Source of the DNA: Leucobacter weissii
Lineage (GTDB): Bacteria; Actinomycetota; Actinomycetes; Actinomycetales; Microbacteriaceae
Length of the DNA: 64,000 bases
Assembly: GCF_017565745.1 (NCBI RefSeq)
Contig: NZ_JAGDYM010000004.1
Span: 434,001-498,000 of the forward strand
Reading direction: 5' to 3'
The number at the start of each line of letters is the position of its first letter. Within the stretch, counting starts at the first letter, position 1. The translations under genes were made by a program, and so were the position numbers. This document shows, in pieces, positions 35,713-46,174 of the stretch. Under the pieces are notes generated by a model. The model was given only the letters and a program-made list of their open reading frames with translations. It was not told the origin of the DNA and searched no databases.

Positions 35713-35757
35713 CAGCACGAGGGCCCGGACCGTTCTTCGGTCCGGGCCCTCGTGCTG
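35713..35757 (+). terminator. 20-bp terminator after tsf
   Basis: A perfect 20-bp stem (35713-35732 with 35738-35757) and TTCTT loop begin four bases after the stop codon. It isolates rpsB-tsf from pyrH, which has its own TACACT promoter. Confidence 0.85.
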
Positions 35758-35785
35758 CCCGCGATCGCCGCGGGGTGCCCTAAGC

Positions 35786-35791
35786 TACACT
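35786..35791 (+). promoter_or_regulatory. Candidate -10 (TACACT) of pyrH
   Basis: TACACT 24 bases before pyrH, immediately after the tsf terminator. It leaves a short leader with GAAGGA (35805-35810). Confidence 0.5.
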
Positions 35792-35814
35792 CAGCCAGAA
35801 CTTCGAAGGAGCCG

Positions 35815-36534
35815 ATGACCATGACCCAGCCCCGCAAGCGCCGTGTGATGCTCAAACTCTCGGGCGAGGCCTTCGGCGGCGGATCGCTGGGCGTCAATCC
35901 CGACGTGGTGGGCCAGATCGCCACGGAGATCGCAGCGGCCATGTCCGACGCTGAGGTCGCCGTCGTGGTCGGGGGAGGGAACTTCTTCCGCGGGGCCGAG
36001 CTCTCCCAGCACGGTATGGATCGTGCCCGAGCCGACTACATGGGCATGCTCGGCACGGTCATGAACGCGCTCGCACTGCAGGACTTCCTCGAGCAGGCCG
36101 GCGTGTCGAGCCGGGTGCAGTCCGCCATCACGATGACGCAGGTCGCCGAGACCTACATCCCCCTGCGCGCCATCCGTCACCTCGAGAAGGGGCGGGCGGT
36201 GATCTTCGGCGCCGGAGCCGGACTGCCCTATTTCTCCACCGACACCGTCGCGGCGCAGCGCGCGCTGGAGATCCACGCCGACGAGGTGCTCGTCGCGAAG
36301 AACGGGGTCGACGGGGTCTACACCGCGGACCCCCGCGAGGATCCCGCAGCCACCCGGATCGATGAGATCGGCTACGCCGACGCCCTCGTCCGGGGCTTGA
36401 AGGTCGTCGACAGCACCGCCTTCAGCCTCTGCATGGACAACGGCATGCCGATGCGGGTGTTCGGGATGGAGCCGGCGGGCAACGTCACGGCCGCGATCCG
36501 AGGCGAGCGCCTGGGCACCCTCGTTCACAACTGA
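35815..36534 (+). CDS. pyrH: UMP kinase
   Basis: 239 residues. Bacterial UMP kinase of the amino-acid-kinase fold: [56 protein letters not shown], and [13 protein letters not shown]. It phosphorylates UMP to UDP and sets pyrimidine supply. GAAGGA allows either ATG 35815 or ATG 35821. It is followed by frr 53 bases on, the standard order. Confidence 0.97.
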
Positions 36535-38114: not shown

Positions 38115-38663
38115 GTGAGCACAGCCTTCCCACCGGCCACCGGCAAACAGCCGGGCTACCGCCGCGATCAGGTCGACGCCTTCCTGGACCGTGCGCGGGC
38201 GAGCTACGAGCAGGGCGCGGGGCCCGGGACGGTGACCTCGACCGAGATCAGGCGGACCGCTTTCGGCCTGAAGCGCAAGGGGTACTCCGCGCGCTACGTC
38301 GACGCGGCCATGGATCGGCTCGAGGAGGTCTTCTTCGAGCGTGAGCGGCGCACCCGACTGGCCGAGATCGGCGAGGAGCGCTGGTGGGCCGAGGTCCAGC
38401 AGCTGCTCTCCGAGGTGCGGGGGCGTATCGAGCGGCCCCCGGGGCGGCGCTTTCGACGCCGCGGGCTGTTCGCGAGCGGATACCGGCGTTCCCAGGTCGA
38501 TGCGTTTCTGGAACGGGTTCGCGCGATGCTCGCGGGCAGCGAGACCCTGACGACGGCAGAGGTGCGCGGCGTCGTGTTCCACACCCAATGGCGCGGCTAC
38601 AACGAGGATCAGGTCGATGCGCTGCTCGACGCCGTCATCGAGATGCTCCTCTCCACCCGCTGA
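38115..38663 (+). CDS. DivIVA-domain repeat protein
   Basis: 182 residues from the GTG at 38115. Four copies of a DivIVA-like motif occur: GYRRDQVDAFLDRAR, GYSARYVDAAMDRLEEVF, GYRRSQVDAFLERVR and GYNEDQVDALLDAVIEML. They form two similar halves joined by a basic linker (about 105-120, GRRFRRRG). No long coiled coil follows, unlike true DivIVA/Wag31. It may bind membranes or polar complexes (inference from motif). A known unnamed family in Microbacteriaceae. Confidence 0.8.
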   Translation: MSTAFPPATGKQPGYRRDQVDAFLDRARASYEQGAGPGTVTSTEIRRTAFGLKRKGYSARYVDAAMDRLEEVFFERERRTRLAEIGEERWWAEVQQLLSEVRGRIERPPGRRFRRRGLFASGYRRSQVDAFLERVRAMLAGSETLTTAEVRGVVFHTQWRGYNEDQVDALLDAVIEMLLSTR

Positions 38664-40558: not shown

Positions 40559-41287
40559 ATGGGACGGATCACGAGCGGAACGGTGCTGCGAGCACGACGG
40601 GAAGACATCGAGCTGCGCACCGAGGACGGATTGACGCTGGTCGGAGAACTCGCGCTCCCCGAACGCACCGAGCCCCGTGCCACCCTCGTCACCCTGCATC
40701 CCCTCCCGACGCACGGCGGGTACATGGACTCCCATGTGCTGCGGAAGGCTTCGTGGCGCCTGCCCGAGCTCGCCGGGCTCGCCGTGCTGCGGTTCAACAC
40801 CCGGGGCACCACGTCCCCGCGCGGCACGAGTGAGGGCTCCTTCGGGGAGGGCGAGGACGAGCGCCTCGACGTCGCAGCCGCGATGCGGTTCGTCGCCGAG
40901 CGCGGTCTGCCCGATCCCTGGCTCGTGGGTTGGTCGTTCGGCACCGAACTCGCGCTGAAGCACGGGCTCGCTCATCCCATCAGCGGGGCGATCCTGCTCT
41001 CGCCGCCGCTGCGGCGCACCAGCGAGGAGGAGCTCGCCGCCTGGGCGGAGACCGGGGTCCCGCTCGTGGCGCTGGTTCCCGAGCTCGACGACTTCCTCCG
41101 GCCCGAGGAGGCCATCAGGAGATTCTCCGCGGTGCCGCACGCCCGAGTGGTCCCGGTCGACGGCGCCAAGCACCTCTGGGTCGGCGAGTCGTATGTTCGC
41201 CGCGTTCTCGATGAAATCGTGCGCACGGTCGGCACGGCGCCGACGCCGCTGCCGGAGGAGGCGACGGAGGATCAGCTCTCCGGCTGA
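40559..41287 (+). CDS. Alpha/beta hydrolase
   Basis: 242 residues. Fold landmarks: LVTLHPLPTHGGYMDSHVL (oxyanion loop), RFNTRGTTSPRGTSEG, nucleophile elbow GWSFGTE with Ser126, PELDDFLRPE (acid) and GAKHLWVGE (His). It resembles the COG2945/dienelactone-hydrolase-like class; the substrate is unknown. Its 3' end overlaps the convergent coiled-coil gene by 16 bases. Confidence 0.85.
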   Translation: MGRITSGTVLRARREDIELRTEDGLTLVGELALPERTEPRATLVTLHPLPTHGGYMDSHVLRKASWRLPELAGLAVLRFNTRGTTSPRGTSEGSFGEGEDERLDVAAAMRFVAERGLPDPWLVGWSFGTELALKHGLAHPISGAILLSPPLRRTSEEELAAWAETGVPLVALVPELDDFLRPEEAIRRFSAVPHARVVPVDGAKHLWVGESYVRRVLDEIVRTVGTAPTPLPEEATEDQLSG

Positions 41288-44076
41288 GCAGCCGTGGCGC
41301 CCTCTTCGCGCGGTCGCTGAGCCTCCCCGCCGGGTCGATCCGCCGTCAGCGGCGTCTCGACGGCGCTCTCCGTGACCTGGTTCATCTTCTGCGCGTTCGT
41401 GAGCACCTCCCCGAGGCTCTCGAAGTAGCGTGCGACGGCGCCGCGCTCCACCTTGAGCTGGGTCATGCGATCCTCCGCGGCGGCCAGCACCGTCTCCGCG
41501 CGGTTCTGCGCCTCGACGAAGGTGACGTGGGCGCGGTGCTCGGCCTCGCGGACGATCTCGGCCGCATCGCGCTCGCCCGCGAGACGCAGCTCCCGGGCTT
41601 CTTCGGTCGAAACGCTGATCAGTCGCGCGTGCTCGGCGCGTGCCGCGTCGACCTGCTCCTTCAACTCCGTCAGCAGAGCATTCGCCGCCGCCGCTTGCTG
41701 CTGCACGGTGGCCTCCGCCTCGGCCTGGCGGTTCGCGATCTCCCGTTCGAGCTGCTCCCTGCGCTCGGCCGCAGCCTTCTGGAAGTCGGCGGACTCGTGC
41801 TCGATGCGCTCGCGCTCCGCCCGGACCGCGGTCTCCACCTCCGTCCTGAGCGACGCGAGAGACTCCTCTTCCGCGGCTCGGCGCTCGGCGAGCTCTCGCG
41901 CGGTGCTCGCGCGCAGCAGGTCCGTCTCCTCGTGCGCGGTCGTGCGCAACTGCAGCACTTCGTGCGCGGCGGCCTCGAGCGCGGCCTCCCGCTCGGCGCG
42001 CAGCCGTTCCGCGTGCGCCTCCGCCGCGGAGGCGAGCCGCCGCTCGTGCTCGGCGCGCTCGCGTTCGATGTCTGCGGCGAGCTTGGTCCGATCGCGGTCG
42101 ACCAGCAGCTCGAACTCCTCCCGGTCGGCGCCGAGCAGGGCCGCCGCCTCGGTGCGGTCGATGCGCAGCTTCTCCGACTGGGCGGTCGCGGCGTCCGCGA
42201 GCTGCTGCTCGTGCGCCGCGAGACTCGCCGCGAGCTGTTCGCGATGGACGGTCACCTCGTCCGCGAGGGCCGCCTCGTGCGCGGCGCGCTCTCCGGCGAG
42301 CGCGCGACGCTGATCGGCGGCCTCCGTCGCGAGCAGCGTCTGCTGCGCCTCGCGCTCGTCGGCCAGTCGGCTCTGATGATCCCGAAGCTCCGACTCCAAC
42401 CGCTGCTCGTGCTCGGCGCGTTCGTCGGCGAGACGAAGCGCGTGCGATTCGCTCTCCTCCGCGATCCGACGATCGTGCTCGTTCCTCTCGGCCGCGAGAT
42501 GCTCCTGATGATCGCGGCGCTCGCGTTCGATGGCGCGGTCGTGATGCTCGCGTTCGCGTGCGATCGTCGCCCGGTGAACCTCTCGCTCGTGCGCGATCGC
42601 GGTCTCGTGCTCGTTCCGCTCGTGCGCGATGGCGGCCTCGTGCTCGTTCCGCTCGCGTGCGAGTTCGGCCTCATGATCGCCGCGCTCCTGCGCCAGCCGC
42701 TCGTCGTGCGTCCGGGACTCCTCGGAGATCCGTCGTTCGAGCGCCTCGCCGAGCTGCGCGAGGCGAGCCTCTTCGGCAGCGGTGCTCCGCTCCTGATCCT
42801 CACGGGCGCGCTGCAGCGCCGTTTCGTGCGCTTCCCGCTCCTTGGAGAGCTGCGCCTCATGCTCGGCTATCTCATCCCGAAGCACGCGGTCGTGCTGCGC
42901 CAGCTCGTTCACGATCCGCTGCTCGTGGGCGTCTCCGCGGTGCTGGAGCTCCGCCTCGGCCTGCTCCGCCGCACGAGCCCGTTCGCGCTCGGCCTGCGCC
43001 GCAGCCGTCTGGAGCTCCGCCTGCAGCGCGGCCCGTTGCCGCTCGGTCTCCGCGAGGTGCTCGGCCCGTTCCTGCGCGATGCGCTCCGCGTGGCTGCTCT
43101 CCGCCGCGGCAAGGCGCTGCTGGTGGGTCTGGAGCTCCTCGGCGATGGCGCGATCGTGCTCGGCGCGCTCCTGGGCGATCCGCCGGCGCAGGGTCTCGAT
43201 CTCGTCGGTGAGCGTGCGCCGCAGCTCGTCCATCTCCGTGTTCAGCGCGCGTTCGCGCTCGGCGTAGCGCTCGGCGTGCTCGGCCTCGGCCCGGGCCGTC
43301 CTCGCCTCGAACTCGGCTCGGGCCTCCTCGGCCTCGGCGGCGAGGCGAGCGCGCTCGAGCTCCGCCTCGCGGGCGCTCGCGGCGGTGCGCTCGGCGAGTT
43401 CCGCCGCCTCCGCCTCGTTCCGACGTCGGAGATCCTCCGCCTCGGCACGGGCGACCGTCCTGAGCCGCCCGGCCTCGGCCTCCGCCTCGGCGAGCAGCGC
43501 GCGGGCCTCCGAGCGAGCGGTCTCGAGCGCTGCGGCCGACTCCTGCTTCGATCCCGTGTCGAGGCGAGCCGCCTCCTCCCGGGATTCCCGCAGGAGGCGT
43601 TGCGACTCCTCGCGCGCTCGTGCGCTGAGCGACTCGGCCTCGGTTCGCGCTCCGGCGAGCAGCGCCTCGGCCTGCTCGGTGGAGGACGTGATCAGCTCGT
43701 CGGCGCGGGTCTGCGCCTGATCGAGCAGGCGCTTGGTCTCGGCCTCGGTGCCCTTGCGCAGCTTCTCGGCGTCGAGGTCGGCCTGCGCCATCAGATTCTG
43801 GGCGTGCTGCTCGGCGATCTTCAGGCTCTTCTCGACCCGGAGGCCGAGCCCCGAGTAGCCGCTCGCCCCGAGTTCGGCCACCTGCTCCTGCAGATCCGAG
43901 ATGAGCGTCCGCTGCGCCTCGCCGTCGCGCTGCGACTGCTGGTGAGCCGACTGCAGCGATTCGATGTGCGTCTGCAGCGCCGCGATGTGCTCCGAGAGCG
44001 TCGCCACCCGAGTATCGACCTCGGCGCGGTTGTAGCCGCGCAACGAGACGGAAAAACGGCTGTGTGCTTCGCTCAT
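41272..44076 (-). CDS. Giant DivIVA/Scy-type coiled-coil protein with hendecad repeats
   Basis: 934 residues from the ATG at 44076. The N-terminus has the DivIVA signature RGYNRAEVDTRVATLSEHI (12-30). Then comes a region like actinobacterial polar proteins (LGLRVEKSLKIAEQHAQNLM, about 85-105). From 302 to 649 the chain is built of 11-residue units (pattern xERxxHxxx[IL]A) with one 18-residue break at 434-451. The rest is Ala/Glu/Arg heptad-like coiled coil ending near 910. There are no cysteines and no membrane segment. By architecture it is a cytoskeletal or polar-scaffold protein of the Scy/FilP/Wag31 kind. A TATGAT-like hexamer lies upstream (44144-44149, reverse strand). Confidence 0.8.
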   Translation of the reverse strand: MSEAHSRFSVSLRGYNRAEVDTRVATLSEHIAALQTHIESLQSAHQQSQRDGEAQRTLISDLQEQVAELGASGYSGLGLRVEKSLKIAEQHAQNLMAQADLDAEKLRKGTEAETKRLLDQAQTRADELITSSTEQAEALLAGARTEAESLSARAREESQRLLRESREEAARLDTGSKQESAAALETARSEARALLAEAEAEAGRLRTVARAEAEDLRRRNEAEAAELAERTAASAREAELERARLAAEAEEARAEFEARTARAEAEHAERYAERERALNTEMDELRRTLTDEIETLRRRIAQERAEHDRAIAEELQTHQQRLAAAESSHAERIAQERAEHLAETERQRAALQAELQTAAAQAERERARAAEQAEAELQHRGDAHEQRIVNELAQHDRVLRDEIAEHEAQLSKEREAHETALQRAREDQERSTAAEEARLAQLGEALERRISEESRTHDERLAQERGDHEAELARERNEHEAAIAHERNEHETAIAHEREVHRATIAREREHHDRAIERERRDHQEHLAAERNEHDRRIAEESESHALRLADERAEHEQRLESELRDHQSRLADEREAQQTLLATEAADQRRALAGERAAHEAALADEVTVHREQLAASLAAHEQQLADAATAQSEKLRIDRTEAAALLGADREEFELLVDRDRTKLAADIERERAEHERRLASAAEAHAERLRAEREAALEAAAHEVLQLRTTAHEETDLLRASTARELAERRAAEEESLASLRTEVETAVRAERERIEHESADFQKAAAERREQLEREIANRQAEAEATVQQQAAAANALLTELKEQVDAARAEHARLISVSTEEARELRLAGERDAAEIVREAEHRAHVTFVEAQNRAETVLAAAEDRMTQLKVERGAVARYFESLGEVLTNAQKMNQVTESAVETPLTADRPGGEAQRPREEGATAAQPES
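42130..43173 (-). repeat. Thirty 11-residue repeats (residues 302-649)
   Basis: Twelve units (302-433), an 18-residue interruption (434-451), then eighteen units (452-649) in exact register. The typical unit is QERAEHDRAIA. Position 6 is His in 22 of 30 units and position 10 is Ile or Leu in most. The DNA shows the 33-base period, e.g. repeated TCGTGCTCGTTCC near 42600-42660. An 11-residue period is a hendecad, giving a straighter or slightly right-handed supercoil than heptads. Confidence 0.85.
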
Positions 44077-44332
44077 GCGATCCTCCGGATCCTGACGGCG
44101 ATCGTGCTCGTTCCTGAGCCCGCCGTTCTTCCCAACGAACTGAATCATAGCTAAAATGCACGGAGGCCGCCTGCGGATTACCCGGTGTGCCGTGTCGGCG
44201 CGGGTGACCCGTGCGTCCCGGCCTGAGAACCGTTCACGGGAAGCTCGGGTAGCGTTGAGAGAATGGTCGCCGCGATCGCGTGCTCGTCGTCGGCGGCCGG
44301 ATGACTGAAAGCTGACGACGAGAGGAGTCCCG

Positions 44333-46174
44333 GTGCGCTTCGGGCTGGCCATCACCTTACTCGTGCTCTCCGGAGTCCTCCTCATCCTCGGCATCGGTCA
44401 GCGCACCTTTCTCGCCGGACCCGACGAGATCGTCTACTCCTATGCGGGCGTCGAAGCCGACGGCGATTACGCGGTCCTCGACGCTCCCGAACTGGAAGCG
44501 GTGCCGGGCGACGTCGAACTCGTGATCGAGGGAGAGAACGCCTTCGCCGCGCGCGGCGCGGCGATCGATGTCGAAGCCTGGGTGAGCGCATTCCCCCATG
44601 CCACGCTGCGCGCCGATTCCGGTGGCGCGCGTCTGGTGAGCGAGGATCCCGTCGCCGCCGATCCGGAGACCGCGGAGGACGCGCAGGGCGCCGATCCTCG
44701 GGGCAGCGACCTCTGGCGCTCCGAACAGGTGGGCCCGGGCCGGATGCCGGTGACGCTCGAGCAGAACGAGTCGATCATCGTCGCGACCGGGGCGGGGACG
44801 GGCGTCTCGCTCGCGTGGGCACAGGACCGGCGGACCCCGTGGGCGGGCCCGCTGCTCGCTGCCGGTGCCCTGTTCGCGATCGCCGGCCTCGTGCTCTATC
44901 TCCTGGCGGTGGATCATGATCGTCGCGGTCTCGGTCCGCGCCGCGGGCGGAGGGGGCCGCTGCTCGGCCTGCGGAACATGTTCGGACGTCGCCGGAGGAC
45001 CCGCAGCGGGTCCGCCGCGTCGTCGGCTCGGAGCGGGAACGGAGCCCGCGCCGGTCGTCGCGCATTGCCGGTGCTCGGCATCGGACTCGCCCTCGCGCTG
45101 ACGGGCTGCTCGCCGAGCTACTGGCCGGATTTCTCCGCCGAGGAGGCGGCGACGGATGCGCCGACGGGCACCGGCGAGACGACGACCGCCGCACCCGTGC
45201 CGGTCACTCCCGAACAGCTCGATCGCATCGTCGGCGAGATCGTCGCCGCGGCCGGAACGGCCGACGACGAACTCGACGCGAAGCTGCTCGAGGCCCGGTT
45301 CACCGGAGACGCGTTGGCGCAGCGCAGCGCGAACTACGAGATCCGGGAATCGGTCGATTCCTACGACGCTCCTCCCCGGCTGACCGACGAGGCGCTCGAC
45401 TACGAACTGGTGCAGAGCACCGAGGGATGGCCCCGGACCGCCTTCGTCACGGTGGAGTCCCTGACTCCTGCCGGGACCGAGGAGGACGAGGACGGCTCGG
45501 AGGACGGGGGCGGGTCGGAGGCCGTGCGCGCCGATGCCGTTCAGGAGTCGATCGCCTCGCCGTCCCTCGCGCTCGTCATGACGCAGGAGACTCCTCACAG
45601 CAATTATCTGGTGTCGCGCGTCATCGCGCTGCGCGGGGGGATCACCATGCCGACGGCCGCGCCGGCGGAGGAGGGGACGGCGCTGCTCGCAGACGACCTG
45701 CAGACGCTGCTGCTGCCTCCGGGCGAGGTCGGAGGCGCGTACGCGAGGATCTTGGCCGGCGAGACGGACACCGAGGAGGCGGCGCTCTTCGACCTGACGG
45801 ACGACACGATCATCGAGAAGAGCGGAGCGGCATGGGTCGCCTCCGCCGAGGACGCCGCCGACGAGGACGATCAGGATGTCCGCTATTCGGTGAAGACGGC
45901 TCAGGCCGAGACGCCGAACGTGAGCCTCTCGACCGGCACCGGCGGCGCCCTGGTGACGACGACCGTGATCGAGGAGCGGGTCGAGCGGGCCGGCGAGGGA
46001 TGGAAGCCCAAGGCGGTCGGCGCGGTCTCGGCGCTCTCGGGCCTCGAGGGACAGCAGGACCGCATCGTCAGCGAGGTAGCGCATCAGCTGCTGTTCTACG
46101 TGCCGAGCAACACGGGGGATCAGCGGATCCAACTCCTGGGATACACGACCGAACTGGTGGGGGCGAGGAAATAA
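44333..46174 (+). CDS. Membrane protein with embedded lipobox (possible two-part precursor)
   Basis: 613 residues, GTG start with AGAGGA upstream. TM1 (5-22), an extracytoplasmic domain (23-168), TM2 (about 170-195), a very basic cytoplasmic linker (198-247, [10 protein letters not shown]), then a third hydrophobic stretch ending in the lipobox LTGC at Cys259. A 350-residue acidic domain follows. The positive-inside rule places Cys259 outside, as for a lipoprotein. Signal peptidase II could therefore release a lipoprotein from the same chain, or translation could restart at ATG 44978. The function is unknown; it is cotranscribed with the thioredoxin-like gene two bases on. Confidence 0.7.
   Translation: MRFGLAITLLVLSGVLLILGIGQRTFLAGPDEIVYSYAGVEADGDYAVLDAPELEAVPGDVELVIEGENAFAARGAAIDVEAWVSAFPHATLRADSGGARLVSEDPVAADPETAEDAQGADPRGSDLWRSEQVGPGRMPVTLEQNESIIVATGAGTGVSLAWAQDRRTPWAGPLLAAGALFAIAGLVLYLLAVDHDRRGLGPRRGRRGPLLGLRNMFGRRRRTRSGSAASSARSGNGARAGRRALPVLGIGLALALTGCSPSYWPDFSAEEAATDAPTGTGETTTAAPVPVTPEQLDRIVGEIVAAAGTADDELDAKLLEARFTGDALAQRSANYEIRESVDSYDAPPRLTDEALDYELVQSTEGWPRTAFVTVESLTPAGTEEDEDGSEDGGGSEAVRADAVQESIASPSLALVMTQETPHSNYLVSRVIALRGGITMPTAAPAEEGTALLADDLQTLLLPPGEVGGAYARILAGETDTEEAALFDLTDDTIIEKSGAAWVASAEDAADEDDQDVRYSVKTAQAETPNVSLSTGTGGALVTTTVIEERVERAGEGWKPKAVGAVSALSGLEGQQDRIVSEVAHQLLFYVPSNTGDQRIQLLGYTTELVGARK

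Follow-up and report, generated by a model that had tools for sequence, protein, structure and literature searches.

A 934-residue protein of Leucobacter weissii combines a FilP-type head with a long rod in an exact eleven-residue (hendecad) register, and one core-like position of this register is occupied again and again by histidine. The position is conserved and largely excludes charge, and among the proteins examined the full histidine ladder is confined to one clade, in which the rod length mostly stays in phase with the eleven-residue unit. The gene lies in the 64,000-nucleotide stretch of DNA that we analysed (the window), in which we recognized the following features.

41272-44076, minus strand: gene of the FilP-family rod protein, 934 aa (ATG at 44076 with GGAGG upstream; from the translation and the upstream sequence)
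43864-44076, minus strand: DivIVA-like head, residues 1-71, with the motif RGYNRAEVD (PF05103, PDB matches, helix 17-71 in the model)
43843-43863, minus strand: conserved hinge SGYSGLG, residues 72-78 (alignment A1; helix break in both models)
41668-43377, minus strand: hendecad rod, residues ~234-803, interrupted at residue 436 by a single heptad stutter (11-state model; period 3.66)
42130-43173, minus strand: histidine ladder, residues 302-649 (histidine in 22 of 31 histidine-position units)
42724-42777, minus strand: 18-residue step (11+7), residues 434-451, the sole phase break within the ladder
41380-41589, minus strand: conserved C-terminal tail, residues 830-899, including AEDRMTQLKVERGAVARYFESLGEV (near-invariant columns in alignment A2)

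Hendecad register and histidine ladder

We denote the histidine position h and the Ile/Leu position, four residues after it, a. Under the a-d-h convention of PMC9858780, onto which we mapped the register ourselves, Ile/Leu would presumably be central and histidine would flank the core.

The protein contains 41 histidines, and spacings of 11 residues are evident in their list. An 11-state cyclic model placed the array at residues ~234-803, about 52 units in all, with a single break (d>i) at residue 436 that corresponds to one extra heptad; histidine occupies 24 of the 51 histidine-position units. The hydrophobic period of the rod is 3.66. The first-pass annotation had described the array as running from residue 302 to 649, and while its register was right, the true array is longer. 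Within residues 302-649 we found 27 histidines, 22 of them in phase when one break was allowed, compared with a maximum of 11 in phase over 5,000 random placements. The ladder thus stands at 22 of 31 units (22 of 30 in the earlier count), and the fixed Ile/Leu position described with it has one of these two residues in 29 of 32 units. The 18-residue step that had been noticed is 11+7 and is the only break in the ladder. The statement that histidine recurs at every turn was mistaken, as the 11 residues from one histidine to the next make three helical turns.

Mean identity between units is 48% for DNA and 29% for protein, with maxima of 85% and 73%. TRF reported short patches only, among them 33-bp units at 42584-42679. 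The histidine codon is CAC in 20 of 25 cases in the window. The GC content is 72.5% for the gene and 70% for the window, and a long plus-strand ORF opposite the rod gene (41527-44154) was set aside as presumably a reading of this GC-rich gene.

The rod gene and an alpha/beta hydrolase gene (40559-41287, plus strand) are convergent, and their ends overlap by 16 bp (41272-41287). On the other side lies a divergent 613-residue ORF (44333-46174, plus strand) with no Pfam or NCBIfam match at E 0.001. About 2.6 kb from the rod gene we found a PolyDIV-type gene with four DivIVA-like domains (38148-38663, plus strand; TIGR03543, E 5e-51). Its neighbour is a cdsA-like CTP-transferase gene, and a gene of the amino-acid-kinase family (35752-36534) is near, in agreement with the UMP-kinase surroundings that passages of PMC9858780 describe for PolyDIV. 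Methylmalonyl-CoA epimerase and crotonyl-CoA reductase genes, which those passages give as neighbours of some FilP/Scy clusters and not as a requirement, were absent among the ten window ORFs scanned in Pfam.

Head, hinge and tail

The DivIVA-like N-terminal signature pointed out earlier was borne out by a PF05103 match on residues 1-225 (E 4e-8, 33.7 bits with a cut-off of 28). All 46 N-terminal regions of alignment A1 also matched this domain, with E-values of at most 0.01. The full-length 934-residue protein had no Pfam match and stayed under every curated NCBIfam cut-off. When the head region was used in a PDB profile search, GpsB and DivIVA chains were among the matches. The top match was a designed helical bundle, and apolipoprotein and ATP-synthase chains were also found, as expected of a coiled coil.

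Twelve residues precede RGY in the head. The hinge residues G76, L77 and G78 are invariant in A1, and the FilP-like proteins of loci L211 and L212 have AGLG at the hinge place. The tail model matched 40 of 40 proteins outside the histidine clade, and one genus protein of 51 is without the tail anchor. In the displayed rows of A1, a seven-residue insertion in the head coiled coil (window residues ~38-44) is present in the genus and some related genera and absent in outside genera and L134; like the changes in the rod, it is a one-heptad change.

Structure models were made for monomers and are uninformative on the dimer. The head-region model (pLDDT 88.8) has helices at residues 17-71 and 77-224. 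The full-length model is of low confidence (pLDDT 65.5) and has helices at 17-64, 80-262 and 291-894, with the helix broken at 263-290.

Relation to FilP, Scy, DivIVA/Wag31 and PolyDIV

In a five-sequence comparison, the head was nearest to a FilP-like protein encoded beside a Scy-like gene (L211, E 4e-17), followed by the Scy-like protein (7e-8) and the DivIVA-domain protein of the window's own genome (0.025). Genomes G450 and G391 carry a FilP-like ORF of 311-317 aa beside a Scy-like ORF of 1,272-1,344 aa (starts set by script), a pairing that makes both genomes probably Streptomyces-like. FilP of Streptomyces, placed in the FilP/Scy group of the DivIVA superfamily in parts of PMC9858780, shares with the window protein the DivIVA-like head, a YxGLG hinge and a long coiled-coil rod. 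Two features of the group were found in the window protein, namely a single N-terminal DivIVA-like domain, for which the group pattern is GYDxxEVD with a short coiled coil, and a long coiled-coil rod with extended hendecads (period 3.66, 11-state register). It differs from the FilP-like proteins in being about three times longer (934 vs 311-317 aa), in its rod period (3.66 vs 3.62-3.64) and in its 41 histidines, compared with 2-3 in the two FilP-like relatives beside Scy-like genes.

The Scy-like ORFs (L211/L212) are of a similar length class and have a hendecad-rich rod. However, they lack a histidine ladder, and their rods have high power (44-49) at 51/14 = 3.643, matching the 51-residue repeat of Scy, and low power (0.4-3.0) at 11/3. 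Fifty-one residues make four hendecads and one heptad, whereas the window rod has one heptad in about 52 units. Scy identity was rejected on the period (3.66, not 3.643) and on the head, which is nearest to FilP. The head motif GYxxxxVD is common to DivIVA/Wag31 and the window protein, and Wag31 identity was rejected at 39.9 bits against the NCBIfam cut-off of 260. A separate DivIVA-domain gene is present on contig C24 of the genome; its best piece scored 56.9 bits, also under the Wag31 cut-off. PolyDIV proteins have two or more DivIVA-like domains, and the window protein has one stretch only. The earlier assignment to a FilP/Scy-type protein with an exact hendecad register and histidine at a core-like position is supported.

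Distribution among relatives

Matches were found in 54 of 54 genus (Leucobacter) genomes searched, in 191 of 249 genomes at the family level and, with a head-region profile, in 248 of 296 genomes at the class level. A search with the 225 N-terminal residues found four loci, three in Leucobacter (L001, L002 and L004) and a more distant one in Aquiluna (L003). From the 186 matching genomes of other genera we fetched 50, first the ten best-scoring and then, by score among the matches listed, 40 from 40 further genera, so that 136 other-genus matches fall outside the sample; the ten non-genus proteins of the ladder set are these ten best-scoring matches. Two genus rows were left out (G024, at a contig end; G048, a 422-aa frame), and G054 (L004, start missing) entered the shuffle test only. 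L001 duplicates L079, and six order-level rows (L003, L018-L022) were used in the histidine-pair and period test only, four of them also being in the tree.

Histidine pairs at distance 11 exceeded the best of 300 shuffles in 53 of 53 genus rows (one a duplicate) and in 10 of 10 rows of other genera in the ladder set. Persistence of the histidine position in homologues, which the first-pass annotation had put forward for checking, holds within the clade: the ladder is in phase in 61 of 61 clade proteins, being weakest in L128 and L131 with 4 such pairs each. The L002 and L097 proteins have 929 aa each. The 40 proteins from 40 further genera (L136-L175) share with the window protein the head, hinge, tail, hendecad rods and mostly in-phase length. 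They have 1-20 histidines, and no full ladder was found among them; three of the 40 (L144, L150 and L151) beat the shuffles with short patches, which may be independent small gains. In 20 regions from the class search, the DivIVA-like ORFs had 0 or 1 histidine pair at distance 11.

A tree of 105 head regions, for which the bootstrap had not settled, placed all 61 ladder proteins in one clade (support 100/94). Judged from these sequences, the full ladder most simply arose once among the proteins examined and was then kept.

As a set, the 40 outside proteins have hendecad rods with layers of Leu and of Val/Thr/Leu/Ile. The near-pure hendecad array had been thought unusual, but these ladder-free relatives are, as a group, also hendecad, and FilP/Scy hendecad rods are described in passages of PMC9858780. 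The 11-residue period is sharp in the longer outside rods and weak or absent in some short ones (for example L163, L164 and L170). Two cyclic shifts fit the counterpart of h in the outside genera equally well (0.870 and 0.868); followed from the tail (58-90% of positions), the register suggests Leu, and followed from the hinge, Ala/Thr.

Rod length is locked to the eleven-residue phase

We measured rod length between the head motif and the tail anchor. The 50 of 51 genus proteins in the analysis have 22 distinct lengths, from 731 to 1,072 residues. Modulo 11, 14 of these lengths fall into one class, 6 are one heptad longer and 2 are two heptads longer (41, 7 and 2 proteins); modulo 7 the distribution is flat. 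Eight of 10 proteins of related genera belong to the main modulo-11 class and two are one heptad short. The 40 outside proteins measure 361-1,010 residues; one class takes in 26 of them, 12 exceed it by one heptad and 2 fit neither. Between the members of 18 disjoint close pairs the length difference is 0 in 8 pairs and 11, 22, 33, 44 or 66 residues in 10. Phase-locked lengths would be expected from selection on register, and also from repeat-mediated indels. To judge by their mean identities, the units have diverged too far for simple slippage.

The histidine position as a probable core-edge layer

To avoid circularity, we retrained the register model with histidine treated as missing. Even so, h received ~1,361 of the 1,534 rod histidines in the 51 genus proteins (posterior sums), and in 10 proteins from other genera it received 224 of 287. 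In the genus set, histidine makes up 45% of the residues at h, and the others are mainly Leu, Gln, Ala and Phe. Charged residues account for 8% at h and 3% at a, compared with 28-78% at the other nine positions.

Substitution in the 18 close pairs was lowest at h (76 of 974, 7.8%), followed by d (10%), e (15%) and a (16%), with 23-30% at the remaining positions. Free variation of the histidine position, which would have spoken against a core role, was looked for and rejected on the finding that h is the slowest of the eleven. Histidine at h changed in 34 of 501 comparisons and histidine elsewhere in 58 of 86. The 34 replacements at h were Gln (24), Tyr (3), Ile (2), Leu (2), Asn (1), Ser (1) and Val (1), with no Asp and no Arg in these pairs, though Arg is one transition from CAC.

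Judged by the hydrophobic moment, h lies 48-49 degrees from the axis and so borders the core instead of occupying its centre, and charge-only axes computed without h gave no usable direction. From these sequence patterns, h is apparently a core-edge layer.

Glu usually lies 4 residues before and 7 after histidine, and Arg often 3 before and 8 after. We compared units whose two neighbouring units both have histidine. Of 866 units with histidine, 96% had Glu at -4 and 93% had it at +7, compared with 69% and 60% of 161 units without; an acidic residue stood at +1 in 68% compared with 47%. Neither the units within a protein nor related proteins count as independent, and the contrast is weaker than these counts suggest.

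A proposed polar layer in a parallel rod and its alternatives

The explanation we favour, and hold to be probable, is a FilP-type parallel dimeric rod in which a repeated polar His/Gln layer fixes packing and phase. The protein would be a cytoskeletal scaffold of the FilP family (DivIVA superfamily), with head, hinge, parallel dimeric rod and conserved tail. Its rod of eleven-residue units would be nearly unsupercoiled and the array ~85 nm long (570 residues at 0.15 nm). Each unit would contribute two mostly uncharged core layers, one of Ile/Leu and, four residues before it, one of histidine (Gln, Leu or Ala in some units), and the Arg at -3 and +8 could form a salt bridge with the partner chain. 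The His/Gln layer would then work chiefly as a polar layer that recurs along the core and promotes parallel pairing in phase; with such pairing along the array, mostly whole-unit length changes would be tolerated. Such changes could also arise by repeat-mediated deletion. A ladder with one histidine per unit cannot stop slips by 11 residues, so it could fix the phase and not the absolute register. The dimer is taken from the family paper (PMC9858780), as the protein is known here from its sequence and monomer models, and by analogy with FilP/Scy a filament and a role at the pole would be expected. The parallel order of the chains, and a histidine layer that sets phase and pairing, we infer. 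The idea that histidine sets the straightness of the filament was not supported; straightness would come from the 11-residue period.

Two rather unlikely readings give the histidines a chemical function. The likelier is a proton or metal switch, in which protonation at mildly acid pH, or zinc-type binding by histidine pairs together with nearby Glu, alters rod stability or lateral assembly. The enrichment of Glu beside histidine (-4, +7 and acid at +1, as above) speaks for it, since acidic neighbours would raise the pKa of histidine and could complete a metal site, and FilP assembly is pH-dependent in vitro according to portions of PMC6599971. However, the units and proteins behind the Glu contrast are not independent, and the two FilP-like relatives with 2-3 histidines indicate that the pH dependence of FilP need not come from such a ladder. 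The presence of Gln, Leu, Ala and Phe at the position also means that no single site is obligatory and speaks against an obligatory metal site, and consecutive histidines, 11 residues (~16 A) apart, are too far from each other for chelation along one helix. Gln in place of histidine fits the polar layer better than a metal site. The other, which we consider unlikely, is a FilP rod turned tunable in one bacterial lineage, where tens of stacked Glu-flanked histidine layers form a cooperative proton or metal switch controlling rod stability or assembly, and length is set in whole 1.6-nm units.

Alternatively, the histidines could sit at the seam edge, spaced by 1.6 nm, and help dimers to pack side by side into filaments or to bind a partner. 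The moment analysis agrees with this, as do the banded filaments formed by FilP (described in portions of PMC6599971). We regard it as improbable, since h is charged in only 8% of cases and is otherwise filled mostly by Leu, Gln, Ala and Phe, in the manner of a core layer. That repeat expansion or composition produced the ladder as a side effect, without selection on histidine, is very hard to credit. The protein is repetitive and rich in Glu, Arg and Ala, the window has 70% GC, and short DNA repeats including the 33-bp units do occur. Yet the mean DNA identity between units is only 48%, the ladder is kept throughout the clade, and the substitution rates of histidine at h and elsewhere are not equal (7% and 67% in close pairs). 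Wholesale recent expansion of a DNA repeat was rejected on the identities between units and the short TRF patches.

Significance of the histidine layer

The rod itself is not new: hendecad rods of FilP/Scy are already known from PMC9858780, which describes hendecad coiled coils as largely unexplored, and what is new is the histidine layer. A literature search over titles and the starts of abstracts, with few subscription papers, returned among the papers listed none on a histidine hendecad ladder, which is no proof of novelty, and nothing on the rod protein in Leucobacter or Microbacteriaceae. The family provides 100 natural rods that share head and tail; between the anchors they measure 361 to 1,072 residues, and most keep the 11-residue phase of their group. 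With one branch carrying a histidine core layer, the rules that connect hendecad sequence to packing become directly testable in a natural series. The same series allows a direct test of how rod length is determined in a bacterial filament.
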